This document shows positions 3,001 through 47,550 of a stretch of DNA of 64,000 nt, one piece after another. The stretch lies in contig NZ_CP036281.1 in the NCBI RefSeq assembly GCF_007750395.1, positions 4,301,001 to 4,365,000 on the forward strand. The letters run 5' to 3'. Numbering within the stretch: the stretch's first letter is position 1; each line of letters starts with the position of its first letter. The position numbers and the translations under genes were made by a program. This DNA comes from Polystyrenella longa (GTDB lineage: Bacteria; Planctomycetota; Planctomycetia; Planctomycetales; Planctomycetaceae). A model generated the notes under the pieces. That model saw only the letters and a list, made by a program, of their open reading frames with translations, was not told the origin of the DNA and ran no database searches.

Positions 3001-6000
3001 TGTCGCTACCTTCAACCCAGGGTATGAATCAAACACAGTTCGAATACTATGGAAGCGGCCAGGCAGGACTCAGCCTGGTCTTCCGCGATCAGCAACATGA
3101 CCAGGCGGTGACGTTCTGCCTGTTCGCCGCCGTCCTCCTTTTGTTCTGGGCATTTCACCGAGTCACATTGGCCACATTCGCGAAGTTTGTTCTTCTGGCG
3201 TTCTTCGTTCCACTGGCACTATTGTGGCTCGTTCCAGTCATCTGGTTTCCCTGGCTGGTAGGTACTATGTTAGGCGCAGTCGCCGCCTTATGCTTAAAAC
3301 TCGCTTCAATGTGCACCACTTGGTGCTTGGTCCATTGCTGCAGACCAGATTGGAAAAAGTCAGTCGCAACTGGGATGTTAATCGCTCTGGTCTGTAGCAG
3401 TAATGTAATGGCTCAGGAGCAGTCCGGCCCGAATCAATCCGCTCAACAGCAGGTCATCGCGCCCGATACTCAGCAACAGAGAAACGCTCAGCAACGGGCA
3501 AATATTCAACGACAGAAAGAGGTCCAACCGCAGTCCAGCGAGACGATTAAACCCACACCGCCTGTTAATCTACTGACTCGTCCCAATTCGTTTCTGTTTT
3601 TGTATGACAAAGATTACAAACAGACGAATACCGTGATTCTTCGTCCGGATCAACATCGCCGGTTATGGGAAGAGGCTTATCAGTCCGTTCCGGGACAGAA
3701 AGCAAAACTTCCTGAACCGATCGTCGCTTCGGCAGGTTACACAGCGGATCTCTCTCAGGTCGCCGACAACAAGACCTTCAGTTTGACAGGCCGGATTGTC
3801 GTCTTTGCGTTTAGTGATGAATCTGCCGAAGTCCAACTTCCTTTCAAAAACATGACACTCAATTCGGCAACCCTCAACGGAGAACCGGCCGAGCTGGAAT
3901 CGCGACTCAACAAGGAAGAACAGGAATACTGGCTGCACCTGCACGAGCCAGGTATGCAGATCGTCGAAGTCAATCTGCAGATCCCGGTTAAACAACAGGA
4001 ACAGTCAGGACAGTTTAAGGTGAACCTGCTTCCCGTCGCGTCGGGGCTAATGTCAGTAACATTACCGCAAAAAGATTTACAGGTTTCCGTTGGTGGAATA
4101 TTTCTGCCGTTCCGCGAACAGCAACAGGACGCGGCGGTACTTGTCGAACAACCCATCAGCACGGGCGGCGATCTTGAATTCAAATGGCAACCAAAAGCGA
4201 ACCGGGAGGACACCTCGTCTATCGTTCACGCCGAGTCGGTCGTTGATATTCATCTCACTGAGTCCGGAGCAAATATATCTCATCGAACGAACCTGCGTGT
4301 CCGTCGCGGCACGTTGAATCAGGTAACCTTCGCTCTACCGGAAGGGGTGAAGGTTCGTGAGATCACCGGAACCGATGTCGGTGGTTGGTCAATTCAGGAT
4401 CAAGAGGGAGCACAGCAACTTGAGGTCCTCTTCCGTCGAAGCGTGAACAATTCGACCGACCTGAATGTCGAACTGTATCAGCCCGTCACTCCTGGTGATG
4501 TGGAAGGAACGTTGACTCTCAACCGGCTCGGGATCCAAAATTTAAACCGGTCCACCGGGACGATTGCTGTTCATGCACCGCAACATCTTTCATTAAAAAC
4601 GAACCAACTGGAAAACCTGAATCAGATCAACCCGACTGATCTTCCTCACCATCACCAGAACAGCACCGGCCAGAAATTGGCTTTCCGGTACCATTCTGTG
4701 CCTTACGTTCTGAGCCTGTCCGTTTGGCAGAAGGAAACAACGACTGAAGTCGACGCAATGCACTCCGTCTTCATCGAACGTCAGACCATCCAGTACTCTA
4801 GTAAGTTTCACATTAAAATATCAGGAGAACCTTTGCTGCATCTGGAGTTTGAACTGCCTGAGAATTACCTGCCAATGGAAGTTCTCGCGAATCAACTCGA
4901 CGACTGGTACATCGAACGGGAAGAGGGAGTGCTACCCCAGTTGATCCTTGAGTTCACTGAACCTCAACAGGGAGGATTTGAAGTCGCCTTCTCCGGCAAG
5001 ATCCTCAAGGATATTAGCTCGCAGGAGATTTCGCTTTCTGTTCCGAGTGCAGTCGCTATGGATCGCCAACAGAGCGAAGTCGGCGTCTGGTTTTCCGAGT
5101 ACTACTCTCCTCGATTGAAAGAACAGGGAGATTGGAAAACGGAAGCGGTCAATCAACTTCACTCTTCAGTGAAGCAGCAGAGAAAGGAACCCCCTCGTTT
5201 CGCATTTCATTCTCCTCGCGGAATCACAAAACCGATTCAATTTGAAATCAAGCGAACACAGGCCCAGATGACCGCTAACGCTGTAACGGTGACGAACGTA
5301 TCCGACACCTCTCTGGCGTATACCCTCGCCTTGAAATGGTCCATCACGCACGGTGGGGCCGATCAGTTTGCGTTCACCGTTCCTGAATGGCTTCAGGGTA
5401 AACTGGAACTGAATGGTACTGGAATCCGCCAAGCTGTCGAGGAAGAAGCTGAAGAAGGGCGTGTCCGCTGGGTCATTGAGACCCAGAGATTGCATCAAAC
5501 CGAATACTTTCTCACCGCATTGGCCACATTGGAGCTGCCAGCAGAAGGGACCTTCCCCATTCCTATCGTGGAATTCGAAACAGCCCATAAACAACTGGGC
5601 GAAGTTCAGCATGTTCCCTTCGAGCTGTCGCAGAATGATTCGATTGTCGTCAATCAATCTCAGGCTCATGTAAAACAGACTTCCGGCGAGACCACGCCCA
5701 TCCAGAAGGAACAACTCCCCATTATCATCGACGGTCGATTTCTGGATCAGGCCGTGGCAATTCAGCGATTGAATCCATCGACAGAGCAGCCAGTCTGGGA
5801 GATCAACTGGTCAAAACAGTTCCAGAGTGCTCCCGCGCAAGTCTTGCTGGCAGATATCGTCACCACTCTGGCTCGCGATGGTTCTGTCCGCGGACAGGTG
5901 ACCTACACGATGCGAAACAATGCCCGACAGCATCTGGCGATTGAAGTTCCCGAATCCGTGAGGTTACTGTCGATTCTCGTTGGGGGAACACCCACTCGAG

Positions 6001-7631: not shown

Positions 7632-7720
7632 CTATGACTTGATTTTTGTACACGTTTCCCGCAGAATTTAGTGATCACTGGAACACACTGTTCATTCACT
7701 TTATTTCGGGGGAGAAATTC

Positions 7721-8380
7721 ATGCTGGCTAAATTTCACACATATTCTCTGTTTGGAATCGATGCCCTGCCGGTTGAGGTCGAAGTCGATATCTCCCCCGG
7801 GGCTCTTCCGAAAACAATCCTTGTTGGATTGGCCGAAGCGGCTGTTCGAGAAAGCACTCACCGCGTGGAGCGGGCTCTCGTGAACAGCGGTTACACCCGC
7901 CCCGTCGATCGCATCGTAATCAACCTCTCTCCGGCCGACCTTCCCAAGGAAGCTCCCTCTTTCGATTTGCCGATCGCTCTGGGACTCCTCGCCGCCAGTA
8001 GCCAGTTGCAACTGGAACGGTTAAACGAATATGCCTCCGTAGGCGAACTTGCTCTCGACGGCAGCCTTCGCCCAATCAAGGGGGCACTCTCAATCGCCCT
8101 GTCCGCCCGCGAACAGGGAAAGAAAGGTCTACTCGTTCCCGCCGCCAGCGCGAAAGAAGCGGCTGTCGTGGAAGGTCTCGATGTCATTCCAGTGGGGTCT
8201 CTCTCGGAGGCCGTAGGTTTTTACAGCGGGCAAATCGATATCGCCCCCATGGAGTTCAACTGGCAAACCGCCGTGGAACAGAATGGTTATCAACTCGACT
8301 ACGCCGACGTCAAAGGCCAAGAGATGGCCAAACGAGCCTTAACGGTCGCTGCTGCCGGATGCCATCATTTACTCCTGTGA
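7721..8380 (+). pseudogene. comM: comM (YifB) 5' fragment, interrupted by prophage
   Basis: Encodes the N-terminal Lon-S5-like domain of the ComM/YifB Mg-chelatase-like AAA+ ATPase (MLAKFHTYSLFGIDA start, NLSPADLPKE and FDLPIALGLLAAS motifs). In transformable bacteria ComM is a hexameric helicase that promotes branch migration during natural transformation. The start at 7721 follows a strong GGGGGAG ribosome binding site. The native frame runs to GCHH at 8370; two more codons and a TGA come from the prophage end. The Walker A half lies at 45565-46464. Joined across the CT crossover the halves give 511 codons plus stop, the usual length of the family. The fragment lacks the whole ATPase and should be inactive. 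Confidence 0.95.
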
Positions 8381-11504: not shown

Positions 11505-11520
11505 CACTAAATAAGGTATG
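11505..11520 (+). promoter_or_regulatory. TAAATA motif on the fibre gene start codon
   Basis: CACTAAATAAGGTATG, ending with the ATG at 11518. One of about a dozen such sites in the prophage; as a -10 box it would place the transcript start at the ATG. Confidence 0.5.
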
Positions 11521-14500
11521 ACTACCGATTATCTCAGACCGAACTCCAATGTGACATCTGTATTTACCGTATTTGATTATACCAACATAGATGACAATGT
11601 ACTGACTGGTGCAGCTGGTGATGGCTTATCTTGTACCATTGATAGAACAGACGACAACGAACAACAACAGTGGGGACTGACTGCCCCTGTTGAGAGTTTC
11701 ACAGAGGTCACATCCTGTACTGTTCATCTCAGATCCTACAATGATGATGATGGCGACACAGATGTTCTCCATGCTCGATTGTTACTTGGTGGTGTTTGGA
11801 CAGGATATCAAGATATTACAATGGGTGGAGGTTCATATACATGGACATCCTGTGAAATTACAGGGTCATGGTCTGGGTCAGATTTCACTTCTGCTCAAAT
11901 TGAATTAAAAACAGATTCAATTGCCAGCTCTGACAATTTCCAACTTGATGTTTTGTATGTTGAGTTAAACGGGACAGGTTCAGTTTCATATGATGAGACA
12001 GGTTCTGGTGGTTGTCTTTTGGCAGGATCGGCAATCGTCAAACCAGACATCATTGCAGAGACTCATTCCCCATCTGATTCAACCAATGACACCTCATCAG
12101 GGTCAGTGGCATGGACCAATGTTGGGAATATTTATTCTGCTGATGCTGCTGTTGCTAGTGTAGGTCCACTGTCATCCACTTCCAACATTCTGAAAGCCAC
12201 TGATTTTGGTTTTACACTGCCTGATATTCAATATTTGTCAGGTATCGAAATCAACATTACTCGATATGCGAATGATGACAATTGTGGTGGTGCAGGTCAC
12301 AGAGTCACTGACACCTTGGTTTCATTACTTGTTGATGGAACTGTCAGTGGAACAAACAATCAGGACAACTTCACTCCTGCCAATGCTTGTACCAGTTGGG
12401 ATGCAACCTCAATTACCCACACTTATGGTGGTCCTAATGAGATGTGGGGTTTAGATTTAGACTCCACCGACATTACAACTGCAAATTTTGGCTGTGCATT
12501 TCAGGTCAATGGTAACAGGGCAGATGAGACTGCATTTGTAGACCATGTAGAAATGACTGTCTACTACCAAAACTCAGTCCCTGAAATCTTTGACGAAATA
12601 GGGTCAGGGGGATGTGTTCTCTCAGGGGAAATGGTCTCTGACCTGACATGCAATGTGACTGGTGATGGTGGCTGTGTCTTATCAGGTGGAGGATTTGCAA
12701 CCACATGTCCTGACTCAATTGCCTGTGATAATTTCACAGGGACAGGCATCAACCTGACCGCACATTATCTGGATGCATTAAATGGATCTAATGATGAACA
12801 GTGGACCATCGTCAATGGCACATGGACCATTGATGCCAACAGATTGAAAAATGAGGATGAACAATCCCGATTGATTTATGTTGATGTGGGTCAATCCTCT
12901 TATTCAGCCACCATGACTTATGATGTACCTACAGGAACAGCCAACATGTTTCAGGGTTTCATCACCAGATATTCAAACAATACAAACTACATCAGAGCCA
13001 ACTACAATGCATTGTTAGAAGCTTTCCAGATTTGGACCATTCAAAGTGGCTCATTTAATCTTAGAGCCTCAACATCAGTCAGCCTCAGTGGAACAGAGAC
13101 ACTGTTTCTGGATGTGAATGGGAATTCAATCACCCTTAGTGATGGGTCAACTTCACTGACTTATGAAACCTCTTTCAACAATACAGCAACTGGACTGGGA
13201 ATCACAGTGGGTGTGGTCCCTGCCTCTGGAACCTACACACCCACTTATATTGATTCATTCAATGTGTCATCTATTTCGTTCAATGAAACAGGTTCTGGTG
13301 GAATCGTATTCTCAGGTCAATCAGCTCTATCTGCTGGATATGTTTTTGAATCTGATGGAGGCATTGTCTTTGGAGGTAATGCCCCCTCATTCAGAGGATT
13401 TGTTTTTATACCTACAGGTCAAATCACATTCTCAGGTGAGACACCTGTTGAATGGAGAGTTGCCAAAACAGGTTCTGGAAAGATTCAATTTTCTGGCATT
13501 ACACCTGTAACATCATCGCATCATGAGGCAACAGCCAGAGGGGGCATTGAATTTTATGACTGGGCAGGAGTGACGATTGGATTCAGTCATCTACCTACAG
13601 GACAAATCACATTCTCTGCTACTGCCAACCATGCATTTCAAGCGAGATACACAGGGCAGGATGGTATCAGATTTTCTGGCATCACACCTGTGACATTCAC
13701 CACCAGCCAATATGAATATGAGTCAGAAGGTGGAATCACTTTCAGTGGTGAAATTGAAATACATGATTGGTTTTCCTATCCAGATGGTGGCATCATTTTT
13801 GGTGGTAGAGCAGAGCCAGTCTCAACAGCTTACAGTTGGTTTGCAGATGGACAAATCACATTCTCAAATAGTGCCGATGTTCAAAGCAATATAGAGCAAA
13901 CAGCAACAGGCGGCATCACTTTTGGAGGTCAAGCCACAGCCAATGTTGTTTATCTAAATTACATTCCCACTGGTGGAATCACATTTTCAGATAGTGCCAG
14001 TGTGATTGTCAGTTATACCACTGACCCTGTTTCCATTTTCCACAATGGATACAAATTTAAACGATTGCTCAAATACAATTCAGCCTCAAATCAAACCAAC
14101 TTCCCACTATTGTTCACTGAAACATTGGGAACAGGTAAAATAACATCATCCAGTGCCTGTGATGTGATTTTTGAGACCTATGACCATACACAATTGAATC
14201 ATGAGATTGAATATTTTGATTCATCCACAGGTCAACTCTTTGCTCATTTCAAAACAACTCTGGAAAAAGGTGACAACTATTTCTGGATGTATTATGGAAA
14301 AGTCAAAGAAATCTGTGATGAGGAAAATGTTTCAGGCACATGGAGTCAATATGCCAATGTTTACCATCTGAATGAGGATGGTGATGGGACTGCCAGTGAA
14401 TATGTGGATGTCAAAGGAAGTCTAAACGGAACTGCTAGATCTCCCATATTCATTCCAGAGCAAATCACAGGCAAGATTCATAAGGGTCAAGACTTTTCGC

Positions 14501-16023
14501 CCATCTCCACCTACATCAAAACAGCAGATGATGAGATTGCAAATACAAATGATTGGTCTGTTTCCAGTTGGGTCAAGACACCCTCATTCATTGCTGGTAA
14601 ACAGGTCATCTGGTCTAGAAACAAAACAGACCTTGGAAATGATGAGGGGTGGTCAATTGAAATGGGTATCAATGGTTCTGGTTATCCAACAGCATCAGTC
14701 CAGATAGACAATGGTGATGAAACATGGTCAACCATCACAGCCACATCATCATCACAATTGACTGCATCAACTTGGTATCACTTAGCTTTGGTTTGGGACA
14801 GTGGATCCTCTATCAGAATTTATGTGAATGGAGTTGAAAAAGGTTCAACCAGTACAGTCAAAACCAATTTGGCTGATGGGTCTGCTGGTAATTACATTGG
14901 GAGAAGAGACACAGGGTCATATTTCAAAGGCATCATTGATGAGTTGCGAGTTTCCCAGACAGCATTCACAGCCAGTTGGTTGTTGAATGAATACAACTCA
15001 GGCAATCAAAGTCTGATTGTGGGACATGAATCAACCTCATTGAATTTCCATGCCATTGTGCCTCCCTATATCAACCTGTTCTTTGTTGGTACGGGTGGCA
15101 TTACTTTCAGTGGCACTGGTCAATCATTCTTCCCCTATTGGGCAACAGGGCAAATCGATTTTGGTGGAAATGCGTCAAACAGATTCTCAATTGGCAATCA
15201 GACTGGGAATGGTGGCATCACATTCAGTGGTAGTGCAGATAATGCAATGAATGTACCTGCCCAAATAGGATCAGGTGGCATCACTTTCAGTAATAGTGCA
15301 GATGTCACTGTGGCCAGAGAGGTCAACACCTCTGGAGGTCTGACCTTTACTGGCAGTGCAGACAATGCAATGACTGTACCTGCCCAAACAGCAACAGGTC
15401 AAATCAGTTTCAGTGGGACTGCCACTAATAGCTTTGCGACATCCAACCAGAATGGGTCAGGTGGCATTGCTTTCAGTGGGACAACAGATCATGCCTATCA
15501 AAGCAATGCATCAATTACAGGTGGAATCATCCTGTCTGGTGATGTCTCAGTGATTGTTTCCAGAGAGTTTCTGACAGATGGACAAATCACATTCAGCAAT
15601 TCAGCTGATGTGAGATTCATCAAGAACAACAATGGTTCTGGAGGAATTGAATTTGGAGGACAGGCAACAAACAGATTCAGTTCAAATCATGAACCAGATG
15701 GTCAAATCACATTCAGTAATTCTGCTGGTGTAGAAGTTCAGACCACCTATGAACCAAGTGGAGTTTTGATGTTCTCTGGGAATGCTCAATTGCTTTATCA
15801 CGATGCCAGAGGGGGCATCAATTTTGATGGAATTTCTTCAATTACGGTTAACAGATCATACATACCATTGGGTGGAATACGATTTGGCAAAGCTATCACA
15901 GATGTTGATGGTGAGATGACTGGTGAAATCATCTTTCCACCGACCTTAAGTGGAGAAATAGTATTCCCACCGACCTTAAGTGGAGAGATTTATTTAGAGC
16001 AGATTGCAACAGGGGAATTATGA
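11518..16023 (+). CDS. Large repeat-rich fibre/adhesin with DUF2341 and LamG-like domains
   Basis: 1,501 residues. The N-terminal third has two Ig/jelly-roll-like segments. From about residue 590 to 1460 more than 20 copies of a short beta-hairpin repeat of the form GxGGITFSGxA are spaced about 20-25 residues apart. They are interrupted by a DUF2341-like domain (about 840-960, MYYGK motif) and a concanavalin A-like LamG_3 domain (about 1000-1165). The C-terminus has two copies of a PPTLSGEI repeat encoded by a direct DNA repeat around 15936-15988. Such proteins bind carbohydrate or host surfaces, so it is the likely receptor-binding fibre. Unusually it lies upstream of the terminase. Its stop overlaps the next ATG. 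Confidence 0.75.
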   Translation: MTTDYLRPNSNVTSVFTVFDYTNIDDNVLTGAAGDGLSCTIDRTDDNEQQQWGLTAPVESFTEVTSCTVHLRSYNDDDGDTDVLHARLLLGGVWTGYQDITMGGGSYTWTSCEITGSWSGSDFTSAQIELKTDSIASSDNFQLDVLYVELNGTGSVSYDETGSGGCLLAGSAIVKPDIIAETHSPSDSTNDTSSGSVAWTNVGNIYSADAAVASVGPLSSTSNILKATDFGFTLPDIQYLSGIEINITRYANDDNCGGAGHRVTDTLVSLLVDGTVSGTNNQDNFTPANACTSWDATSITHTYGGPNEMWGLDLDSTDITTANFGCAFQVNGNRADETAFVDHVEMTVYYQNSVPEIFDEIGSGGCVLSGEMVSDLTCNVTGDGGCVLSGGGFATTCPDSIACDNFTGTGINLTAHYLDALNGSNDEQWTIVNGTWTIDANRLKNEDEQSRLIYVDVGQSSYSATMTYDVPTGTANMFQGFITRYSNNTNYIRANYNALLEAFQIWTIQSGSFNLRASTSVSLSGTETLFLDVNGNSITLSDGSTSLTYETSFNNTATGLGITVGVVPASGTYTPTYIDSFNVSSISFNETGSGGIVFSGQSALSAGYVFESDGGIVFGGNAPSFRGFVFIPTGQITFSGETPVEWRVAKTGSGKIQFSGITPVTSSHHEATARGGIEFYDWAGVTIGFSHLPTGQITFSATANHAFQARYTGQDGIRFSGITPVTFTTSQYEYESEGGITFSGEIEIHDWFSYPDGGIIFGGRAEPVSTAYSWFADGQITFSNSADVQSNIEQTATGGITFGGQATANVVYLNYIPTGGITFSDSASVIVSYTTDPVSIFHNGYKFKRLLKYNSASNQTNFPLLFTETLGTGKITSSSACDVIFETYDHTQLNHEIEYFDSSTGQLFAHFKTTLEKGDNYFWMYYGKVKEICDEENVSGTWSQYANVYHLNEDGDGTASEYVDVKGSLNGTARSPIFIPEQITGKIHKGQDFSPISTYIKTADDEIANTNDWSVSSWVKTPSFIAGKQVIWSRNKTDLGNDEGWSIEMGINGSGYPTASVQIDNGDETWSTITATSSSQLTASTWYHLALVWDSGSSIRIYVNGVEKGSTSTVKTNLADGSAGNYIGRRDTGSYFKGIIDELRVSQTAFTASWLLNEYNSGNQSLIVGHESTSLNFHAIVPPYINLFFVGTGGITFSGTGQSFFPYWATGQIDFGGNASNRFSIGNQTGNGGITFSGSADNAMNVPAQIGSGGITFSNSADVTVAREVNTSGGLTFTGSADNAMTVPAQTATGQISFSGTATNSFATSNQNGSGGIAFSGTTDHAYQSNASITGGIILSGDVSVIVSREFLTDGQITFSNSADVRFIKNNNGSGGIEFGGQATNRFSSNHEPDGQITFSNSAGVEVQTTYEPSGVLMFSGNAQLLYHDARGGINFDGISSITVNRSYIPLGGIRFGKAITDVDGEMTGEIIFPPTLSGEIVFPPTLSGEIYLEQIATGEL

Positions 16024-31099: not shown

Positions 31100-32212
31100 A
31101 TGTCAAAACAATACGTTGATATTTATGGCAATAAACTATTGACCTACATCAGAATGAATGATGGTCAGGGTGGTGAAGTTAATTTGAATCCCACCAAAGT
31201 TGAAAACAATCAGACATGGTTGTTGTACCAATACGACATGCTCACAGGGGGATGTGATTGGATCAGTGAAGCTAATGGAGATTGGAGAGCAGGAAATCCT
31301 GCCCAGACACTAGGTGGTCTTGGTGGACAGAACACATCACCCACACCTCTCTATACTGGTGCCTCTATTCTCAGTGGTGGGCATGATTCCAATATTTCCA
31401 ACCCATCACCCTATTATATCCATGTCTATTCAGCGGGATCTGGTGCCCATCAAGATTCATTCCCAACTGCAACCACTTTGGGAGGTGTTCAATTCACTGA
31501 CTTACAACTAAAACCATCCAGTATTGGTCCAGTCTTAGTTTCAGTCATTGCAGGCAAAGCGATTGTCAAAGTATCTGAAAATGGTTTAGGGCAAGCCTAT
31601 TACACAGGACCAAATACACAAAGATTTGGAGCATTCATTGACATCGTAGGTGGGAAACTCTGGTATTCGACCAACAACTATTTTGGAGGTGGTGGTGGAG
31701 GACTGGTCAGAACCATTTCCAACTACACATCAAACAATTGGGTGGACGATGGAATTGACTACAAATTATCTGATGCAAAAATCAACAACAAAGAGCCTTA
31801 TGGAGCCATCTACGATTACAGAGGACAATGTTGGTGGGCACAGTATCGCTTTGATGATGATCCAAGACTAGGACTGGCTAAACTGTCCATCGATTATCAG
31901 ATCCTAGACTACGACAGAACGAGTCATAACATCGAAAGAATGATGCCTGATGGAAATGGAAATCTGGCCTGCATCATGTCATCCATCAAATATCTGGTTG
32001 ATGGTGGACCAGTGAAACATGATGGTCCTTATGGGGATGGATTTGGAACCAATTACAGGTTTTCATGCATTTTCGATGGCTCTTTTGGTGACTTTTCTTA
32101 TGTGCCACCATTCACCATTCCTGTCTGTGCATTGGGAAATGAGGTCATCTCTATTTATCCATCAAATGTCCAGTCTTCTGTTTCTTCAATTGCTGTTCCA
32201 AATGTGTTTTGA
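31100..32212 (+). CDS. Last tail gene: beta-rich, possible propeller or spike
   Basis: 370 residues. AAGGAG precedes the ATG. Repeating strands with Trp/Tyr-Gly motifs (GGKLWYSTNNYF, YDYRGQCWWAQY, DGNGNLACIM) suggest a beta-propeller-like or spike domain that contacts the host. It ends the rightward structural block and overlaps the convergent sulfotransferase fusion gene by 62 bases. Confidence 0.6.
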   Translation: MSKQYVDIYGNKLLTYIRMNDGQGGEVNLNPTKVENNQTWLLYQYDMLTGGCDWISEANGDWRAGNPAQTLGGLGGQNTSPTPLYTGASILSGGHDSNISNPSPYYIHVYSAGSGAHQDSFPTATTLGGVQFTDLQLKPSSIGPVLVSVIAGKAIVKVSENGLGQAYYTGPNTQRFGAFIDIVGGKLWYSTNNYFGGGGGGLVRTISNYTSNNWVDDGIDYKLSDAKINNKEPYGAIYDYRGQCWWAQYRFDDDPRLGLAKLSIDYQILDYDRTSHNIERMMPDGNGNLACIMSSIKYLVDGGPVKHDGPYGDGFGTNYRFSCIFDGSFGDFSYVPPFTIPVCALGNEVISIYPSNVQSSVSSIAVPNVF

Positions 32213-34139
32213 TCGATGACCAATCATCCACAGAACCACATCGAATAATTGAAACTGAATCATACAGGTCACAATCCTCTCTCAATCCCCATCTCCATTC
32301 CCCTCTGTAAGGCAAACATAAATAGGTATCTTTACCCATTGAACCAGAAAGATGAGCCACAGCAGTATCACAGGTGACCACACATGAGACTGAATTAATC
32401 AAAGCAGCAGTGTCACCAAAGTTTTCAATTTTCGTTTTCTCGATTTCAGATCCTGAATAACCATATTGCAATGATATCCAAGGGACATCCATGGAGGTGA
32501 ACACAGATAAAGGAATTGACCTCTCTGCATCATGCTGATTGTCAGGATTGCCTTTCCAACACAAACCTATTTTTCCCACACCCTCATCATTCACCTCAGG
32601 ATAAGTCAAATAAGGTTGACCAGTCATTTCAATATCCAACACAGCAGGCAATGACAGCAGGGGAATGCAATAGTCATATTCAATCTCTAAGCCACTAGCC
32701 ATATCTCGCTTTGACACACATTCATAATCAGGGAACAGAGGAATCATGGAATCATCCATGTTCAAAATTAAATGGGCATCAGGATATTTATCCAACAATG
32801 GTTGAACAAAACGACAACCCATAAATCCATCCCCTGAACCCTGTTCAAAATAAATCAATACTCTCTTGCCATTCAAACATTCCTCTCCATTCCATATCTT
32901 TCCCAGATAGTTAATCGTTCTGGCTGTCCTCCTATCTGTTTGCAATCGATAGGAATACTCTCTACATCCCTCTTTCCATTTCCCCTGACACATCAAAACC
33001 CTACCCAAAAAATCATGAGATATAGGACTGTCTGTCAATTTGACTGCCTCTTTCAATAATCGTTCTGCCTTTCCATGGTCTCTCTCCCAAACAGCAACTC
33101 TGGCCATCAACTGAAAATAGACATCATCATTCTGAAACTCGTTCTCAATCACCTCCACTGCCTTTTCTACAGGCAATTTGCCCAACACTCTCATCAACAG
33201 ATTGATGTTCCTGTTGTTTCTTCTCAATTCTAAGGCTTTCAGAGCCATTCTAAGGGCCTGATGGTATTTCCCCTCAAGAATCATCAGGGAAGATAAAACA
33301 GAGGCTGTCAGCCAGTCATAGGGCGATTTACGGAACTCTTTTGACAATCTGGCCACATCTCTTTGTGTAAACCAAACTGCAAACAACTTTTCAATGGAAT
33401 AAAACTCATTGGAATTCGCCAATTCTGACCATTGAAACTTGGAATCATTGATTTTCCGATCATAAACAGCCTCTGAATCAACCTGAAATTCCAATGGAAA
33501 ACCTAACTGTTTTGACAGTTCTTTCATCTCTGAGTCAAAACAACTCATGAACTCAGGGTCACCCACAAACTGACTCCATCTCCCAGTCAATTTGCTCTTG
33601 TCCAATGACCAATCATCTTTCTCAGACGAGCCAAAACAAGAATGAGCCACATAAGATGGGGTTTCTGATATCAGATGGTCATAAATCAAATGCTTTGCCT
33701 GTGGAATGATCATCCCACCATTCAATACCTCTTTCATGTATTGTTTCTGCATGGCTATGACTCGTTCATTCACAAAACAACCATATTCATGATTGGTATC
33801 AGGAAATCGACGACACCTGACCAATCTTGATGCAAGCATGTTCTGTGGCGACCTGACCAAGACATAAACAGTTTCAGGTAATGTCATTTTGGCGGCAATA
33901 TTCAAATCAACATCCTCAAAACTGAACAAATTGAGGACTGGCAATGACGAGTCTTTGTCTTTGTCAAAGATGTAAGTTGATTTGGCTGGGATCTCAAATG
34001 AGCCATTAGGTTTCACTGTGCAATTATTGTGATGATGAACCACATTGGGCAATTCCTCAATAATCTTGAATATGAGGGCATGATTACCACTTCTACGTAG
34101 TCCAAATACAAATATGTCTCTCTCTAAATTATATTCCAT
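32151..34139 (-). CDS. Sulfotransferase-like / TPR / family 9-like glycosyltransferase fusion
   Basis: 662 residues. The first ~215 resemble P-loop sulfotransferases: FVFGLRRSGNHALIFK near residue 10 is the sulfate-donor-loop type motif, with VYVLVRSPQNMLASRLVR near 93 in place of the 3'-phosphate binding motif. A TPR-like helical repeat region covers about 255-420. The C-terminal ~230 residues match the TPR-linked GT9/OGT-like glycosyltransferases: KIGLCWKGNPDNQHD, WISLQYG, DTAALINSVSCVVTCDTAVAHLSGSMG. It has phage-like AGA codons and its own start-codon promoter motif. Likely role is decorating host surface sugars or a virion protein (inference). Donor and acceptor are unknown. Confidence 0.75.
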   Translation of the reverse strand: MEYNLERDIFVFGLRRSGNHALIFKIIEELPNVVHHHNNCTVKPNGSFEIPAKSTYIFDKDKDSSLPVLNLFSFEDVDLNIAAKMTLPETVYVLVRSPQNMLASRLVRCRRFPDTNHEYGCFVNERVIAMQKQYMKEVLNGGMIIPQAKHLIYDHLISETPSYVAHSCFGSSEKDDWSLDKSKLTGRWSQFVGDPEFMSCFDSEMKELSKQLGFPLEFQVDSEAVYDRKINDSKFQWSELANSNEFYSIEKLFAVWFTQRDVARLSKEFRKSPYDWLTASVLSSLMILEGKYHQALRMALKALELRRNNRNINLLMRVLGKLPVEKAVEVIENEFQNDDVYFQLMARVAVWERDHGKAERLLKEAVKLTDSPISHDFLGRVLMCQGKWKEGCREYSYRLQTDRRTARTINYLGKIWNGEECLNGKRVLIYFEQGSGDGFMGCRFVQPLLDKYPDAHLILNMDDSMIPLFPDYECVSKRDMASGLEIEYDYCIPLLSLPAVLDIEMTGQPYLTYPEVNDEGVGKIGLCWKGNPDNQHDAERSIPLSVFTSMDVPWISLQYGYSGSEIEKTKIENFGDTAALINSVSCVVTCDTAVAHLSGSMGKDTYLCLPYRGEWRWGLREDCDLYDSVSIIRCGSVDDWSSIKTHLEQQLKKQKTGHLMDK

Positions 34140-34152
34140 AACTTTATATAGT
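34137..34152 (-). promoter_or_regulatory. TATATAAA motif on the fusion gene start codon
   Basis: ACTATATAAAGTTATG on the minus strand, ending in the ATG. It faces the nearly identical motif of the divergent gene at 34212-34228; the intergenic space is only 86 bases. Confidence 0.5.
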
Positions 34153-34211
34153 AATTATTTTTAAAGTATTTCATAATTTCTCGTTTTTTTGGAATACTTT
34201 TGAAAATACGT

Positions 34212-34228
34212 CACTATATAAAAGTATG
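34212..34228 (+). promoter_or_regulatory. TATATAAA motif on the RHH gene start codon
   Basis: CACTATATAAAAGTATG, ending in the ATG at 34226. Confidence 0.5.
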
Positions 34229-34438
34229 AACAAACCCAAAAAGACATCTGAAAGAACGGGAATCACTAGATTAAGATACACATTCACTCTTAATCCAGTG
34301 GTCATGGAACAACTGAAAGAGTATTGCAAATACAACAATATTTCTTACTCGTATTTATTAGAAGATACGATCAAAAGTCAGTTAGAAGTTTTGAGAGGAA
34401 AGAAGCATAAGAAAAAGAAGAGGAAAAAGAATGATTGA
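34226..34438 (+). CDS. Ribbon-helix-helix-like small DNA-binding protein
   Basis: 70 residues. The strand ITRLRYTFTLNPVVMEQL followed by two helices (KEYCKYNNISYSYLLEDTIKSQL) fits a CopG/Arc-type ribbon-helix-helix; the tail is a run of lysines (KKHKKKKRKK). First gene of a three-gene operon with the RAMP-like protein and overlapping the second gene by 8 bases. It may autoregulate the operon or bind the repeat array downstream as DNA. Confidence 0.6.
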   Translation: MNKPKKTSERTGITRLRYTFTLNPVVMEQLKEYCKYNNISYSYLLEDTIKSQLEVLRGKKHKKKKRKKND

Positions 34439-35006
34439 CATGAAGTTCCTCATCAGAGACGAAAACAACAAGCCTTTTAATACTATTTTTTCCAAAATAC
34501 TCAATGCCACGTTCCAATCATCACATGGTCAATTAATCAAAAGGATTACAGTCAACTGTGATGAGGAATATTTTGACAGCAAGGCTGTGTACTTGGTCAG
34601 CTTTGCATCTTGTGACATGAGAAAAGAATTGTTTAATTTGCTTAATGAAAACAACACTGATTTCACCATCAGAGATGTCAGAATGAATGATGATGATTTG
34701 GATAGCACAGATTATTTTCAGCAAATGTTTGGATACTCTTTTGCGATTAGACAAGCATTTCTTCAAGGACTCAGCATTTCCCTTACCTGTCCTGTTCATT
34801 ATCGAATTGACTTCATTCGAGATGTCTTGTTGAGGGAATTAGAAAAGAAAGAAGGAACCCTGAGTTTTACAGAAACAGAGATTACATTCACCAGTCCGAC
34901 TGGTGAAGAGAACAGGATTGATTTTGAAATTGCACCTGTTGAAAGATATTGCCATCAGTTATCGGAAACTGATAACAATCACCTAATCATATTAATTCCA
35001 GAATAA
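34431..35006 (+). CDS. Unknown protein of the RAMP-like operon
   Basis: 191 residues, alpha/beta, starting behind AGAGGAAAAAGA. Alternating strands and helices (KRITVNCDEEYF, VYLVSFASCD, GLSISLTCPVHYRIDFIRDVLLREL) would suit a ferredoxin-like or RAMP-like fold, but no glycine-rich loop is present and the family is not recognised. Sixteen bases separate it from the RAMP-like gene, so they are co-transcribed. Confidence 0.6.
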   Translation: MIDMKFLIRDENNKPFNTIFSKILNATFQSSHGQLIKRITVNCDEEYFDSKAVYLVSFASCDMRKELFNLLNENNTDFTIRDVRMNDDDLDSTDYFQQMFGYSFAIRQAFLQGLSISLTCPVHYRIDFIRDVLLRELEKKEGTLSFTETEITFTSPTGEENRIDFEIAPVERYCHQLSETDNNHLIILIPE

Positions 35007-36580: not shown

Positions 36581-36597
36581 CCCTAAATACCTGCATG
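36581..36597 (+). promoter_or_regulatory. TAAATA motif on the methyltransferase start codon
   Basis: CCCTAAATACCTGCATG, ending in the ATG at 36595; no Shine-Dalgarno sequence. Confidence 0.45.
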
Positions 36598-37380
36598 GGG
36601 AAACTTTCAAAACAACAAATCAAACATCAATCAGAACTATTAGATTCAATTCAAAACAATCCCAATGATGATCAGATTGAAACGTTTTACCACAACTTCA
36701 ACGAACAATTCATTGGCGACGTCACAAGAAATTCAGCCTATTTCACACCTCTTGATTTAGCCTATGACTTTGCTTTGATGTCTCCCACTTATGGTTATGT
36801 GATTGATGCCTGTGCTGGAATAGGTCATCTCTCCTTTGCCGCAAAAACAAGAGACTACTATCAAAACAACATCAAACAACTCATCTGCATCGAACTAAAC
36901 CACAAATACACCGAAATAGGAAAGAAACTATTACCAGAGGCTGACTGGTATACTGGCAGTATCTTTGATGAAGAATTACACAAAGAAATCATGTCAAATT
37001 ACAACATTCAGAAATATGACTGCCTTATCAGCAATCCACCATTTGGATCCTACTCAATGAAACCTGTTCCCAAAGAACAAAGAAAGTGGCTTAAATACAC
37101 AGGCAGTGAATTTGACATGGCAACTATCGAAATAGGACACAAACTGGCCAACAATGCCTCTTACATCCTGCCAACTCAATCCTGTACCTTCCAGGCATCA
37201 GGCCATAGCTACATCAAACAACACAAAGAAAACCGCAAATTCAATAAACTGAAAAAAGAAATCAATCAACCCAATTTAATCCAACATTGGACATCAATTG
37301 ACACAGCAGTCTATGAACAATTCAAAAATACCAGAGTAAGTGTTGAATGTTTGACTGTGGAAGTTGATGAATGGACATAA
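36595..37380 (+). CDS. DNA N6-adenine methyltransferase
   Basis: 261 residues. AdoMet motif VIDACAGIGHLSFA near residue 65, acidic turn CIELNH near 98, and catalytic NPPF near 143 (CLISNPPFGSYS), in the order typical of N6-adenine DNA methyltransferases. YFTPLDLAYDF before motif I is like the target-side motif X. No restriction endonuclease is adjacent, so it is an orphan enzyme, probably protecting phage DNA from host restriction or marking it. Recognition sequence unknown. Confidence 0.85.
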   Translation: MGKLSKQQIKHQSELLDSIQNNPNDDQIETFYHNFNEQFIGDVTRNSAYFTPLDLAYDFALMSPTYGYVIDACAGIGHLSFAAKTRDYYQNNIKQLICIELNHKYTEIGKKLLPEADWYTGSIFDEELHKEIMSNYNIQKYDCLISNPPFGSYSMKPVPKEQRKWLKYTGSEFDMATIEIGHKLANNASYILPTQSCTFQASGHSYIKQHKENRKFNKLKKEINQPNLIQHWTSIDTAVYEQFKNTRVSVECLTVEVDEWT

Positions 37381-39908: not shown

Positions 39909-40652
39909 TCACACAAATTGTCTAATCTGATTCGATTGACTGACTTTTGAATAATATTTAAGAAGGATTGTCGGACTGTTTCCAACCATTGTTGCCAAAA
40001 CTGGCACAGGCACACCTGCCAATAATTTATTTGTGATGTATGTATGTCTCAAATCGTAGGCAACACAACTGAATGGCAATTGACTGAATGCTCTTTGCCA
40101 ACCTTTTTCGTTCCATTTTTTGCCAGTGATGAATTCTGAGTTCCAGTCGATTTGTTCCAGTGCAGATTTAGACAAGTAAACCATATCTGATTGACCTGTT
40201 CTTTTTTTGTTTTTGTGTTGTTTGAGGTAGACCAGATCTTTTTGAATGTCAGCAGTTTTGATTGAACAGATTTCAGAGGGTCTCCTGCCAGTAAACAGGA
40301 GTAGATTGAACAATCGGACAAAGTCTGAATCACAGTTCTCATTGACCCAATTGACCTGATTCTGAGAGATTAAGTTTTCTCTACGTTCACCAGCGGGTAT
40401 TTTCAGATTCTGGATGGGATTAATTCTGATCATCTTTTGATTGAATGCCCAGTTGAAACATTGTTTCAGGATGATGAAATAGAGTCTTTTGGTTGACTCA
40501 GACCATCTTTCTTGTTTTGCAAGTTTGAGGATGAGTTTTTCTGAGAGTCTGGAGGGTGGAACATGACCCAGTTCAGACTGTATTTTTCCCAATGGCTTTT
40601 TGTATTGGGGATTCTCTTTTGTGTATTTGTCGATGAGTGTTTTGATAAACAT
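39909..40652 (-). CDS. Tyrosine recombinase/integrase
   Basis: 247 residues. A SAM-like core-binding domain (about 1-85) precedes the catalytic domain: Arg in TGRRPSEI near 123, YDLRHTYIT near 205 (box II arginine with Tyr in place of the first His), VGNSPTILLKYYS near 230 with the nucleophilic Tyr. The usual second His/Trp is Asn here. The phage also has a serine integrase at its right end, so this enzyme is probably not the integrase that produced the comM junctions; dimer resolution or relic are options. AAAGG precedes the ATG. Confidence 0.85.
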   Translation of the reverse strand: MFIKTLIDKYTKENPQYKKPLGKIQSELGHVPPSRLSEKLILKLAKQERWSESTKRLYFIILKQCFNWAFNQKMIRINPIQNLKIPAGERRENLISQNQVNWVNENCDSDFVRLFNLLLFTGRRPSEICSIKTADIQKDLVYLKQHKNKKRTGQSDMVYLSKSALEQIDWNSEFITGKKWNEKGWQRAFSQLPFSCVAYDLRHTYITNKLLAGVPVPVLATMVGNSPTILLKYYSKVSQSNQIRQFV

Positions 40653-43733: not shown

Positions 43734-45500
43734 TCATTTCCAGTTTTTGCTGAATTGGTTGAAATATTGTGTGATATTGTTTCCTGTCTCTGCCACAGAT
43801 CGTGGATTTTTCAGGCTGTCCCATTCTTGTTGCAATCTAAGTTGGACATTCTCATCAGTCAGGTCAATGTTTAGATTCTTAGCCAAGGATCCCAAGAATC
43901 TATTTCGATGCACTGCAACCATCTGAAATTTTACAGCATCAGTGGTTTTGTAGTGGAGGGTGAGACAACATAAGCGATAATGACCACTGACTAGTGTCAA
44001 CATCTTCACATCTTCAATTAGTTCTGAGAACAGTGTTCTAAATTTATGTCTCACTTCAATGTCACCTGCCTTATCTTTATTTCTCATGTAGAAAATCAAT
44101 CTTTTAACATCTTCAACTGTGGGCAGGGATGCTGACATTTCCCCTTTCAGATCCTCTGTTTGTTGTTTGAGTATCCTGACCTCTTTTCTCAGTTTGACCA
44201 CTTTGGGAGTCAGTGTATCGATAAGGTCTATATCCTCTTCAACATTCAGTTTGGTCTGCATCTTTTCCATTAACAGTGTTTTCTTGCCTAGCATTGTTTC
44301 AGCTTCATCTAATCTATCTTGCAAATCAGATGGGATAGTCTGAGGTGAAATATCACTGATAGAAATGTCTTTCATTGTGTAGAGAATTCCCTCTTCCAAA
44401 TATTGGTACGGGAATGAGACATATTTTGAGTTTTTAATTTTATTGACTGCCCCTGATGACACCAGTTGTTTTCCAGATGACTTGGTTCCTTTGTTTACGA
44501 TTTGCATATTAGAGCCATCGATGGCACATCTTATCTTTCCCTGAAAGAGGTTGGTGATTCTGCCAGAGAGGTCACGTTTTCTGCCAGGAGTCTTTTTCAT
44601 TTTGACCAGACTTTGCAGCCTGTAGAAATCAGCCTCTTTGATTGCCGATGGATAATAGTTCTGAATTGCATCTCCGATGTTTTGTCTGTGTTCAACAGTT
44701 AGATATTTAGAGCCTTTTTGAAATTGCATTTCTCCGATCAGAGAACGATTGCTGACAATTTTGTTGATGGTTGATTTGGACCAGAATAGAGGACCTGATT
44801 TTTTCTTACTTCTATTGGTAATGATGACAGGCACATTTTCTTTGTTGAACATACTGGCAATTGTCACTGGTCCATGATTATCCAGATACAGGTGACAGAT
44901 TCTCCTGACAATGGAGACATGCTCATTTAATTCATAGGCTCTTTTTTCATCATTGTAGGTCAACCAAAATGGGCATCGATGTCTGACTCTGTTTCCATCC
45001 ATTGCCTTTTCACGTTTGTATTGCCAGACCTCTTTCAATCGGACAGATTTGACCTCTGATTCTTCATTGGATCTGCAAAGAGTCATCACCATGGACATCA
45101 GACACATGGGATCTCTGTTCAATGTTTCTTCATCGATGATTTGTTCAGAGGGTGAAACAGCAACAATTCTGATCCCAGAAGAAACGATACTCAACAGCAG
45201 TGATACAGCTGTCATCGGTTTTTGCCTGCTGATTCTGTCCAGTGATTCAACCACCAGTGCAGATCCATGTGGGATTTGACCTGACTCACAGAGTTTGATG
45301 AAAAGAGCGAGTGACCCACCTTCTTTGAGATTGTCACCACGATAGCCTGACAATCCTCTATCTGGTTTCAGAGTGGTATCCAAAACGTAATCATTCGCCT
45401 CACACCACCTCTTAGTCAGTTTCATTTGTCGATTGAGGCTATTCCCTTTTTCCTGTTCCAAGGTAGAGAATCTTGCATAACTGTAGGCCGTTTTGGACAT
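43734..45500 (-). CDS. Large serine recombinase (phage integrase)
   Basis: 588 residues. Resolvase-type catalytic domain with nucleophilic serine in YARFSTLEQ (about residue 12), DRGLSGYRG near 50 and ESLDRISRQ near 88. Recombinase domain about 170-270 (NKIVSNRSLIGEMQF), a reduced zinc-ribbon region near 310-340 in which only one Cys is evident, and a coiled coil about 390-455 (DRLDEAETMLGKKTLLMEKMQ...). This is the architecture of phiC31/A118-type integrases. The gene starts 80 bases from the crossover at attR, as usual for these enzymes, and should have produced the comM insertion. Confidence 0.93.
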   Translation of the reverse strand: MSKTAYSYARFSTLEQEKGNSLNRQMKLTKRWCEANDYVLDTTLKPDRGLSGYRGDNLKEGGSLALFIKLCESGQIPHGSALVVESLDRISRQKPMTAVSLLLSIVSSGIRIVAVSPSEQIIDEETLNRDPMCLMSMVMTLCRSNEESEVKSVRLKEVWQYKREKAMDGNRVRHRCPFWLTYNDEKRAYELNEHVSIVRRICHLYLDNHGPVTIASMFNKENVPVIITNRSKKKSGPLFWSKSTINKIVSNRSLIGEMQFQKGSKYLTVEHRQNIGDAIQNYYPSAIKEADFYRLQSLVKMKKTPGRKRDLSGRITNLFQGKIRCAIDGSNMQIVNKGTKSSGKQLVSSGAVNKIKNSKYVSFPYQYLEEGILYTMKDISISDISPQTIPSDLQDRLDEAETMLGKKTLLMEKMQTKLNVEEDIDLIDTLTPKVVKLRKEVRILKQQTEDLKGEMSASLPTVEDVKRLIFYMRNKDKAGDIEVRHKFRTLFSELIEDVKMLTLVSGHYRLCCLTLHYKTTDAVKFQMVAVHRNRFLGSLAKNLNIDLTDENVQLRLQQEWDSLKNPRSVAETGNNITQYFNQFSKNWK

Positions 45501-45530: not shown

Positions 45531-45553
45531 GGGTCTGAGAGTCATTATACCAG

Positions 45554-45600
45554 TGACAGGACAAATGGAAAGTCATTTGCTGATGATTGGCTCTCCCGGT
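45554..45600 (+). other. attR (serine integrase hybrid site)
   Basis: The phage arm TGACAGGACAAATGGAAA (45554-45571) is the imperfect reverse complement (16 of 18) of the left arm at 8381-8398. TCATTT (45573-45578) and CT (45580-45581) are shared with attL. To the right comM resumes in frame. Confidence 0.8.
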
Positions 45601-46464
45601 ACTGGCAAGACATTGCTCGCCTCACGAATCGGCACCATTCTGCCGGAGTTGCAATTAAAGGAAAGCCTGGAGACCACTCGAATCTATTCGGCCATGGGAC
45701 GGCTCAGCAATGGCGAATCGCTGATGATGCAGCGTCCCTTTCGCTCCCCCCATCATACCATCAGCGAAGCGGGGCTTGTCGGCGGCGGAAGCACTCCCGC
45801 CCCCGGAGAGATTTCGCTGGCACATCATGGATTACTTTTTCTGGATGAACTGCCTGAGTTCAACCGGCGCACGCTGGAAGTCCTTCGACAACCCCTCGAA
45901 GAAAACTGCGTCACGATCTCGCGAGCTATTGGATCTGTGACCTTTCCCGCCCGATTGATGCTTGTCGCGGCGATGAACCCGTGCCCCTGTGGGTATCGTG
46001 GGGATACACGCCGTCGGTGTAGTTGTAACCCGACTCAGATCGAAAGGTACGTCAGCCGTATCAGCGGCCCGCTTCTCGACCGCATCGATATCCACATCGA
46101 AGTCCCGCCTGTTCCTTTCCGGGAACTTTCCAATCAGGAGGACGGAACTAACAGCGAAACCATTCGTGAACAGGTTCTGGAAGCGCGTGAATTCCAGACA
46201 CATCGCTTCAAAGAAACTCCCGAGATGCTCAACGGAAAAATGGCGCCGCGCGAAATCAGGCGTCATTGCAAATTGAAACCGGAAGCGGAGTCACTGCTGA
46301 AACAAGCGGTCGAACATATGGGCCTTTCGGCCCGTGCTCACGACAAAATTCTCCGCATCAGCCGCACCATCGCTGATCTGGCCCGTGCGGACCAGATCGA
46401 ATCTCATCACTTATCAGAAGCCATCAACTACCGCACACTCGACCGGAATTACTGGGGAACGTAG
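45565..46464 (+). pseudogene. comM: comM (YifB) 3' fragment
   Basis: Carries the whole Mg-chelatase-type AAA+ part: Walker A GSPGTGKT, RPFRSPHHTISEAGLVGGG, Walker B GLLFLDELPEF, and the Cys-rich CPCGYRGD...CSC segment plus C-terminal helical domain. From 45579 on it is the natural continuation of the 5' fragment. An ATG at 45565 or GTG at 45553, both in phage DNA, could start a truncated ATPase, but the ribosome site is weak. Excision restores the gene. Confidence 0.93.
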
Positions 46465-46470
46465 CTCAGA

Positions 46471-47550
46471 CTATTTCTCCAACGACTCAAAGACCGCTTT
46501 CGCCAGTAGTGGGAAAACGACGGTCGCATCGGCATAAACCTCGGCGTAGCGGCCCCCTTCATTAGGAGGGACGAACTTGCCCCAGCTGACGCCTTCGGAA
46601 TAAGTGCATCCCGACAGACCGCCCCAGTGGACAGGTTCCGGACAGATGCGGACACCGTATTGAAAGCGAGGTGCCTTCAGGGCTGTCTCGGTGCGGTGGT
46701 TGGTAATGTCGACGAAGGGGCCAACCTGCTGTGCCCAGTTTCGCGGAACACCGCCTCCAATTGTCAAAATGCCGACCTTCTTCGCATCTTGAACAAACCG
46801 GGTGTATTGGAGTAAATCCTGGAACGGATTGAATGGAGGAGGAGCACTGAAGACCTCTTCGCTATTCAAGCTGTCGCGAGATTTTTCCTGTTGGGCTAGC
46901 TGATTGTTAATCGCCCACGTCGCCATATCGAGTCCGATCTCGCTATCCGTAAATGCGGGAATAAAGACAGGCACGTCTTTCTCGTAAGCACTCCGCAAAA
47001 TACCGGGGCCCACATTCAAGCGAGAGAGTTCTGCTCCCAAAGCTTTGCACAATTCCCCGGAAGACCAATACCCCGATTCAGGAGTGGTATTTTCCAGTAC
47101 GCGGGCCATCAACTGAGCGACTTCGTTCAGGTTCGATTCCATCTCGAGGGTATCGTAGATGCGGTTATACCCTTTCTCGAACAGATCTTCGTCTGAGTGG
47201 TCGGGGCTGTACCGATAGTGGGCCAGACCGATTGACTCGGTGAGGCCGTGAGCGATCAACGCTCCCGTAGCAATTACGGCGTCGACGATTCCTCGGTCGA
47301 TCAATTCACAAACGATGTATCCCTGTTTGGCAACCGTCATCGCACCGGAGATGGTCATCACGACTTTGCAATCCGGGTCTTTTGCCATCTGGAGCAGAAT
47401 GTCATAGGCATCGCCCAACTGTCGCCCACCGAAGGCAGTTTCCCGCATCGAAAGTAACAAGTCGGAAAAGGAATTCACTTTGCCAAGATCAAGACTCTTC
47501 AATGGCACTAAGCCGTCGTCTCGACCATCGTGAAGTGCGCGCATAGACAT
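46471..47550 (-). CDS. Deoxyhypusine synthase-like enzyme
   Basis: 359 residues. Matches the bacterial branch of the deoxyhypusine synthase family: VVMTISGAMTVAKQG for NAD binding, LIAHGLTES, PVFIPAFTDSEIG, and EGVSWGKF near the C-terminus, where SWGK holds the lysine that carries the aminobutyl group in the eukaryotic enzyme. Bacteria lack eIF5A, so homologues are thought to transfer the aminobutyl group to another acceptor such as putrescine (homospermidine-type chemistry). It lies downstream of the AdoMet decarboxylase gene on the same strand, so a polyamine role is likely. GGAG precedes the start. Confidence 0.85.
   Translation of the reverse strand: MSMRALHDGRDDGLVPLKSLDLGKVNSFSDLLLSMRETAFGGRQLGDAYDILLQMAKDPDCKVVMTISGAMTVAKQGYIVCELIDRGIVDAVIATGALIAHGLTESIGLAHYRYSPDHSDEDLFEKGYNRIYDTLEMESNLNEVAQLMARVLENTTPESGYWSSGELCKALGAELSRLNVGPGILRSAYEKDVPVFIPAFTDSEIGLDMATWAINNQLAQQEKSRDSLNSEEVFSAPPPFNPFQDLLQYTRFVQDAKKVGILTIGGGVPRNWAQQVGPFVDITNHRTETALKAPRFQYGVRICPEPVHWGGLSGCTYSEGVSWGKFVPPNEGGRYAEVYADATVVFPLLAKAVFESLEK

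Follow-up and report, generated by a model that had tools for sequence, protein, structure and literature searches.

The 64,000-nucleotide stretch of the Polystyrenella longa genome analyzed here (contig NZ_CP036281.1, positions 4,301,001 to 4,365,000; hereafter the window) carries a prophage with a gene for a 662-residue protein, in which an N-terminal sulfotransferase-like domain, a tetratricopeptide repeat (TPR) solenoid and a glycosyltransferase domain of the GT9 type follow one another in a single chain. This fusion enzyme probably decorates either the phage's own tail or a molecule of the host surface with a sulfated sugar. We tentatively favor, at close to an even chance, the interpretation that it acts in the cytoplasm as a bifunctional enzyme for glycan decoration, belonging to a temperate phage of planctomycetes and directed at a virion protein. 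Its architecture is uncommon rather than unique, and the kind to which it belongs, the glycan-modifying enzymes of phages, is already known. A preliminary description had proposed one such 662-residue fusion in a phage, lying opposite to the tail genes; this is borne out by the intact open reading frame (ORF), the surrounding prophage genes and the antiparallel placement of the gene, whose final 62 bp are shared with the 3' end of the last tail-module ORF.

Domain architecture of the fusion protein

The frame has no internal stop and finds a 100% match in the 6.1-Mb single-contig assembly (G000:C1:4333154-4335139). Pfam matches to the protein are weak, with both TPR_2 (E 8e-4) and Glyco_transf_9 (E 0.054) falling below the curated cut-offs. 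The sulfotransferase, TPR and GT9/OGT-like domains named in the preliminary description are thus faint by direct sequence comparison, but they are confirmed as predicted domains by profiles, structure models, fold matches and a homolog with the same architecture. As the phosphosulfate and sugar-donor motifs are both retained, the loss of donor pockets that this description had named as evidence against its idea is not indicated. The domains were modeled separately rather than as one full-length chain, and a full-length alignment of 77 rows, which mixed sulfotransferase and glycosyltransferase rows, was set aside. Inspected by eye, the protein shows neither a hydrophobic nor a secretion segment.

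Searches with residues 1-250 returned nothing useful from Pfam, PHROGs or NCBIfam, and no Pfam sulfotransferase model was matched. Entry to the family was provided by one weak match in another planctomycete (39% over 38 residues, E 0.0028). Across the phylum a two-row profile matched 5 of 392 genomes, the window's own among them, and a 13-row alignment identified as relatives 129 of 163 pattern-matched stretches of genome contigs, many from cyanobacteria and roseobacters (the best 80 of the 129 were retained). Among viral contigs, scans with the fusion protein alone and with a two-row alignment found no relative, the 13-row alignment recognized 19 of 61 pattern-matched stretches, and a DNA-motif scan for RRSGNHA yielded 104 stretches, nearly all of them chance frames, from which a single locus (L034) was retained. 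The hallmark of the family is the motif RRSG[NH]HA, and the N-terminal domain belongs to it by alignment and profile. Its members in cyanobacteria, roseobacters and other organisms are mostly single-domain proteins and differ from the fusion protein in their acceptor-side residues.

An AlphaFold2 model of the N-terminal domain, built from 71 rows, has a predicted local distance difference test score (pLDDT) of 82.4 and a predicted template modeling score (pTM) of 0.79, with low confidence at residues 160-180. In structural alignments of this model all 50 rows listed are sulfotransferases (Z 8.4-10.3), many with 3'-phosphoadenosine 5'-phosphate (PAP) bound; the best is 4gox (Z 10.3, root-mean-square deviation (rmsd) 3.9, 185 residues aligned, covering residues 1-217). 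Foldseek places Teg14, Teg12 and StaL at the top (E 3e-4 to 5e-3, best 3.2e-4), at TM-scores of only ~0.33, and its TM-scores are mostly low for both of our models. The model points to a sulfotransferase fold dependent on 3'-phosphoadenosine 5'-phosphosulfate (PAPS) for residues ~1-222, one shared, together with the RSG loop, by Teg12/Teg14, SULT, NDST, TPST and the olefin-synthase sulfotransferase, at identities of 7-16%. At 22 alignment columns a residue is conserved in at least 90% of the other 70 rows. The fusion protein retains 14 of these, including R16, S17, G18, H20, A21, R96, N100, A103 and S104; these match what we take to be the two PAPS-binding motifs of SULT structures, and the spacing of the R...S motif is presumably also that of the SULTs.

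The remainder of the protein was modeled from 42 rows with higher scores (pLDDT 89.7, pTM 0.89) as an eleven-helix solenoid followed by a GT-B domain. Ranks 1-8 among the structural matches to the GT-B half are taken by WaaC, WaaF, a GT9 protein of Veillonella and TibC (Z 15.0-15.6, 220-238 residues, rmsd 3.0-3.2); the structural alignment also matches TPR domains, and Foldseek ranks the TPR-glycosyltransferase proteins SPINDLY and OGT first. WaaC/WaaF and TibC share with it the C-terminal fold and the DTAxxHL and GD motifs, whose residues presumably play the same roles, whereas identity is 8-14%, and WaaC and WaaF lack the TPR and sulfotransferase parts. Over the whole TPR-glycosyltransferase part, 26 columns reach at least 90% conservation in the other 41 rows, and 23 of them are retained. 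The protein has the TPR solenoid followed by a GT9-like domain, along with the motifs EQGxGD, KxGxxWxGNP, DTxxxHL and WRW, by which we delimit the TPR-GT9 family; since it scores 13.2 bits against PF01075, for which the curated cut-off is 22, we speak of a GT9-like domain and not of a member of the Pfam family. Within the order, 45 of 170 genomes encode TPR-GT9 proteins, which are also found in 72 viral loci. The present host has one further copy, with 32% identity over residues 346-651 of the fusion protein; at so low an identity, recent gain of the fusion gene from the host chromosome is unsupported.

The same fusion in a jumbo phage and related fusions

A 754-residue protein encoded on a 527-kb viral contig (L135:4923-7184; IMGVR_UViG_3300005613_000001) has all three domains of the fusion protein, arranged in that order, and aligns with it across 731 columns at 27% identity (E 1e-62). 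This contig, which is from an uncultured source, has a terminase match above the Pfam cut-off. The jumbo-phage protein differs in having a fuller sulfotransferase domain and a longer TPR part, and no tail gene was recognized beside it. A chance fusion is unlikely because this second protein shares the three-part architecture, and together with the intact frame it rules out a chance ORF or an assembly artifact. Among 320 loci scanned, 127 ORFs have the sulfotransferase domain and 107 the TPR-glycosyltransferase part; no ORF combines the two except copies of the Polystyrenella protein (three rows) and of the jumbo-phage protein (four rows), though rarer fusions may be missed since the loci were retrieved by exact short patterns. 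We recognized no report of a sulfotransferase-TPR-glycosyltransferase fusion in phages in the literature covered, which mostly excludes subscription papers.

In the sulfotransferase tree the fusion protein groups with the jumbo-phage protein (support 93/62, below the level that the program marks with a star) on a very long branch of 2.66 changes per column. A quick tree of the glycosyltransferase part places it among phage rows (support 89), again on a long branch (2.2). Approximately unbiased (AU) tests on 58 of the 73 glycosyltransferase rows, 15 mostly long-branched rows having been dropped, reject neither its grouping with cellular rows (p-AU 0.28) nor its grouping with the jumbo-phage protein (p-AU 0.24).

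Several other proteins join some of these modules to further decorating domains, which likewise speaks for a decorating enzyme. A 1589-residue frame (L158:2020-6786) comprises a methyltransferase, TPRs, two glycosyltransferase regions and a C-terminal sulfotransferase domain of the RRSG type, and in another locus (L176) the sulfotransferase domain precedes a methyltransferase. By eye, a methyltransferase-like domain is also seen at the C-terminus of the TPR-GT9 protein of cyanophage BUCT-ZZ01 (L326:5818-7533) and at the head of another TPR-GT9 protein (L320). The 527-kb phage contig contains at least two more sulfotransferase-like genes, L135:1075-1737 (by motif only) and L227:5941-6678.

Genomic context in the prophage

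The terminase, portal, tape measure, head protease and major head protein recognized around the fusion gene place it inside a prophage, within which G+C is ~0.40 as against ~0.51 outside. Insertion of the prophage has split an ATPase gene of the comM/ChlI type (Mg-chelatase family) at a point shortly before the Walker A motif, and a large serine recombinase adjoins its right end (Table 1). Comparison of the two ends revealed no exact repeat of more than 8 bp. Portal matches were found in 2 other genomes of the 170, at 24-26% identity; no sister prophage is close enough for a comparison of gene presence and absence.

The fusion gene diverges from a gene for an Arc-like (ribbon-helix-helix) repressor. 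Two exact copies of ACTATATAAA exist in the window, and they lie before the starts of precisely these two genes. The dyad in the region between them is weak, with 31 of 1000 shuffles reaching its score, and AATACTTT is repeated 6 times in the window, a number that 6 of 100 shuffles reach. The preliminary description had credited the fusion gene with a promoter motif of its own; this did not hold up in a sigma-70 scan, which found no site in the 86-bp gap upstream of the gene, though planctomycete or phage promoters may deviate from the consensus. No terminator-like site was detected in 31900-34500. The divergent repressor gene suggests that the fusion gene is regulated separately; control by the Arc-like repressor itself is a guess.

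Table 1. Features of the window bearing on the fusion gene (positions from the first nucleotide of the window)
Feature	Position	Strand	Remarks
Sulfotransferase-TPR-GT9 fusion gene	32151..34139	-	ATG start, stop codon included, 662 aa
Sulfotransferase-like domain, N-terminal, residues ~1-222	33474..34139	-	Predicted from AlphaFold2 model, fold match and family alignment
5'-phosphosulfate-loop motif RRSGNHA, residues 15-21	34077..34097	-	R16, G18, H20, A21 invariant and S17 99% in 70 other rows
3'-phosphate-binding motif RSPQNMLASR, residues 96-105	33825..33854	-	R96, S104 invariant and N100 99% in 70 other rows; strand then helix in model
Helical TPR-like solenoid, residues ~244-412	32904..33410	-	11 helices in model; weak Pfam TPR match
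GT9-type GT-B domain, residues ~420-662	32154..32882	-	Predicted from model and fold match
EQGSGD, residues 432-437, first Rossmann loop	32829..32846	-	Asp at the place of what we take to be the catalytic Asp of WaaC
DTAVAHL, residues 591-597, donor-side motif	32349..32369	-	D591, H596 invariant in other rows
Divergent intergenic region	34140..34225		86 bp; imperfect dyad and ACTATATAAA upstream of both start codons
Arc-like (ribbon-helix-helix) repressor gene	34226..34438	+	Divergent from fusion gene; phrog_3180, E 2.7e-7
Last tail-module ORF	31100..32212	+	370 aa, convergent; possible fibre or tip protein by position after tape measure
comM/ChlI-type ATPase, N-terminal half	7646..8380	+	Left of insertion
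comM/ChlI-type ATPase, C-terminal half	45553..46464	+	Right of insertion
Large serine recombinase	43734..45500	-	Adjoins right prophage end

Some further genes of the window deserve mention in their own right. The prophage has a second integrase-like gene, of the tyrosine type (39909-40652, phrog_1, E 9e-28), alongside the serine recombinase, and upstream of its terminase gene is an ORF of 1501 residues (11518-16023) with no PHROG match. Beside the insertion site lies an ORF of 2538 residues (15-7631) with no Pfam match. A member of the deoxyhypusine synthase family (PF01916, E 7e-76) is encoded at 46471-47550, in a bacterium.

Proposed function and alternatives

We propose that the TPR solenoid would bind a target protein, that the GT9-type domain would transfer to it a sugar from a nucleotide-sugar, and that the N-terminal domain would sulfate that sugar using PAPS made by the host. 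The likeliest target would be one of the phage's own virion proteins, foremost among them the putative distal tail or fibre protein, the end of whose gene lies within the fusion gene. We infer the activity, the sugar donor, the target, the order of the reactions and the time of expression. A precedent is furnished by FlmG of Caulobacter, which also has a TPR part followed by a GT-B domain in one cytoplasmic protein; according to its report, the TPR part binds flagellins, the GT-B part glycosylates them and both are needed (PMC7591256). By analogy, a protein acceptor would be the natural reading of the TPR-glycosyltransferase half. The likeness to FlmG is one of domain layout, and FlmG differs in being a bacterial protein without a sulfotransferase domain that adds pseudaminic acid. 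As for the other half, the host possesses an adenosine 5'-phosphosulfate (APS) kinase, so the sulfotransferase domain could draw on host PAPS.

Other phages have the sulfotransferase and TPR-GT9 parts in separate genes, and the surroundings of these genes lean toward virion proteins as targets. Five phage records with TPR-GT9 genes reduce to three distinct, annotated phages, as one duplicates S-SRM01 and one has no annotation; in all three the gene is near virion genes. In BUCT-ZZ01 it directly follows a BNR-repeat gene and is the third gene past a tail fibre gene, in ctDrO704 it is third after the major capsid gene, and in S-SRM01 it is fourth after a putative tail fibre gene. Seven genes further along, S-SRM01 also encodes a separate sulfotransferase, which is of another type (LPRSGST). 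The sulfotransferase domain is found beside identified head or tail-fibre genes in 3 of the 15 phage loci listed (L240, L242 and L244), of which L240 and L242 are close relatives. Elsewhere in phages, epimerase and phosphoheptose isomerase genes adjoin sulfotransferase genes, and by eye the cellular relatives L025, L028 and L029 stand beside glycosyltransferase-like genes. One phage cluster (L034:170-2222) consists of a TET-associated glycosyltransferase (TAGT, PF20691, E 2.9e-9), an RRSGNHA sulfotransferase-like protein and a 229-residue protein without assignment. The neighbor of another phage sulfotransferase matches the HMC-glucosyltransferase family, and may be the same as that in L034, since the locus in question (L241) overlaps it.

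Several observations weigh against a virion target or an active sulfotransferase. In the 12 other listed loci the sulfotransferase genes have sugar, methyltransferase or unidentified neighbors, with no head or tail gene among those scanned, and the neighbors of TPR-GT9 genes in metagenomic phages are a mixture of primase, methyltransferase, endolysin, tail and head proteins (77 of 102 scanned). The 370-residue ORF is called a fibre by its position, because profile scans recognized no relative of it and a genome search matched only itself, the ORF being absent from all other genomes of the 170 searched. The orientation of the fusion gene opposite to the late genes, and its divergence from a repressor gene, fit expression in lysogeny better than a part in virion assembly. 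Finally, 8 of the 22 conserved sulfotransferase columns are lost (W25K, D97S, W156L, a deleted YR pair, the GxG and one Ser), W25 and W156 being near-invariant among the relatives. Most of these losses fall on what is presumably the acceptor side, on which the domain is shortened and poorly modeled; taken with the low confidence at residues 160-180, they imply that the domain, even if it binds PAPS, might have little or no enzymatic activity.

The main alternative is lysogenic conversion, in which a sulfated sugar placed on a polysaccharide or protein of the host surface during lysogeny would block other phages or change the cell surface. This is quite conceivable, if on balance doubtful: the moron-like site where the tail module ends, the opposite orientation and the divergent Arc-like repressor fit it, as do the glycosyltransferase-like neighbors of the three cellular relatives and the sugar-metabolism neighbors in other phages. 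A review of jumbo phages describes glycan clusters of jumbo cyanophages that have been proposed to alter host polysaccharide against superinfection (PMC7824862). The 45 sulfatase matches in the host genome, from which we conclude that sulfated glycans matter to the host, point the same way; of the marine-type setting rich in sulfated glycans invoked by the preliminary description, these matches and the APS kinase provide circumstantial indications only. Yet the one TPR-glycosyltransferase layout with an experimental precedent, that of FlmG, acts on proteins, and the named phages have their TPR-GT9 genes near fibre or capsid genes. Moreover, given that no hydrophobic or secretion segment is apparent, an enzyme working on a surface glycan would need cytoplasmic or lipid-linked precursors. 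We accordingly consider a phage tail protein the more likely target than a host surface glycan.

It is decidedly unlikely, in our estimate, that the protein is a glycosyltransferase whose N-terminal domain has decayed or merely binds, so that the TPR-GT9 part works alone. The acceptor-side losses, the poorly modeled residues 160-180 and the long sulfotransferase branch speak for this reading; but the near-invariant residues of the phosphosulfate motifs are retained except for D97 (and W25 just past the first motif), the frame is intact, the glycosyltransferase part is divergent too, and in the alignment the YR pair is likewise missing from the phage protein of L034. Modification of the phage's DNA, or of another intracellular molecule of the host, instead of the virion or the surface seems highly improbable. 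It is brought to mind by the TAGT gene beside the sulfotransferase relative of L034, by the HMC-glucosyltransferase-like neighbor and by a DNA methyltransferase gene of the prophage (36595..37380), whereas TPR parts are protein-binding and no base-hypermodification gene was recognized among the prophage ORFs scanned.

Implications

Sulfotransferases have been reported from phages with no function assigned to them, and a paper on OM43 phages says outright that what they do is still unclear (PMC10580990). The fusion enzyme narrows this question to one testable protein, in which sulfation is joined to a TPR-guided glycosyltransferase and the candidate targets are few. Glycans on virions have been recorded, in that a paper on aquatic phages cites their presence in mycobacteriophages, on subunits of the capsid and the tail tube (PMC12619734). 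A bolder conjecture, which we regard as rather unlikely as it stands, is that tailed phages sulfoglycosylate their own tail fibres with a single-protein machine, by which the virion would copy, or bind, the sulfated-glycan surfaces of the host's habitat. If true, it would explain what phage sulfotransferases are for. To our knowledge the phages of planctomycetes have been little studied, and sulfated glycans on the virion or the cell surface would add a new layer to phage-host recognition among these bacteria.

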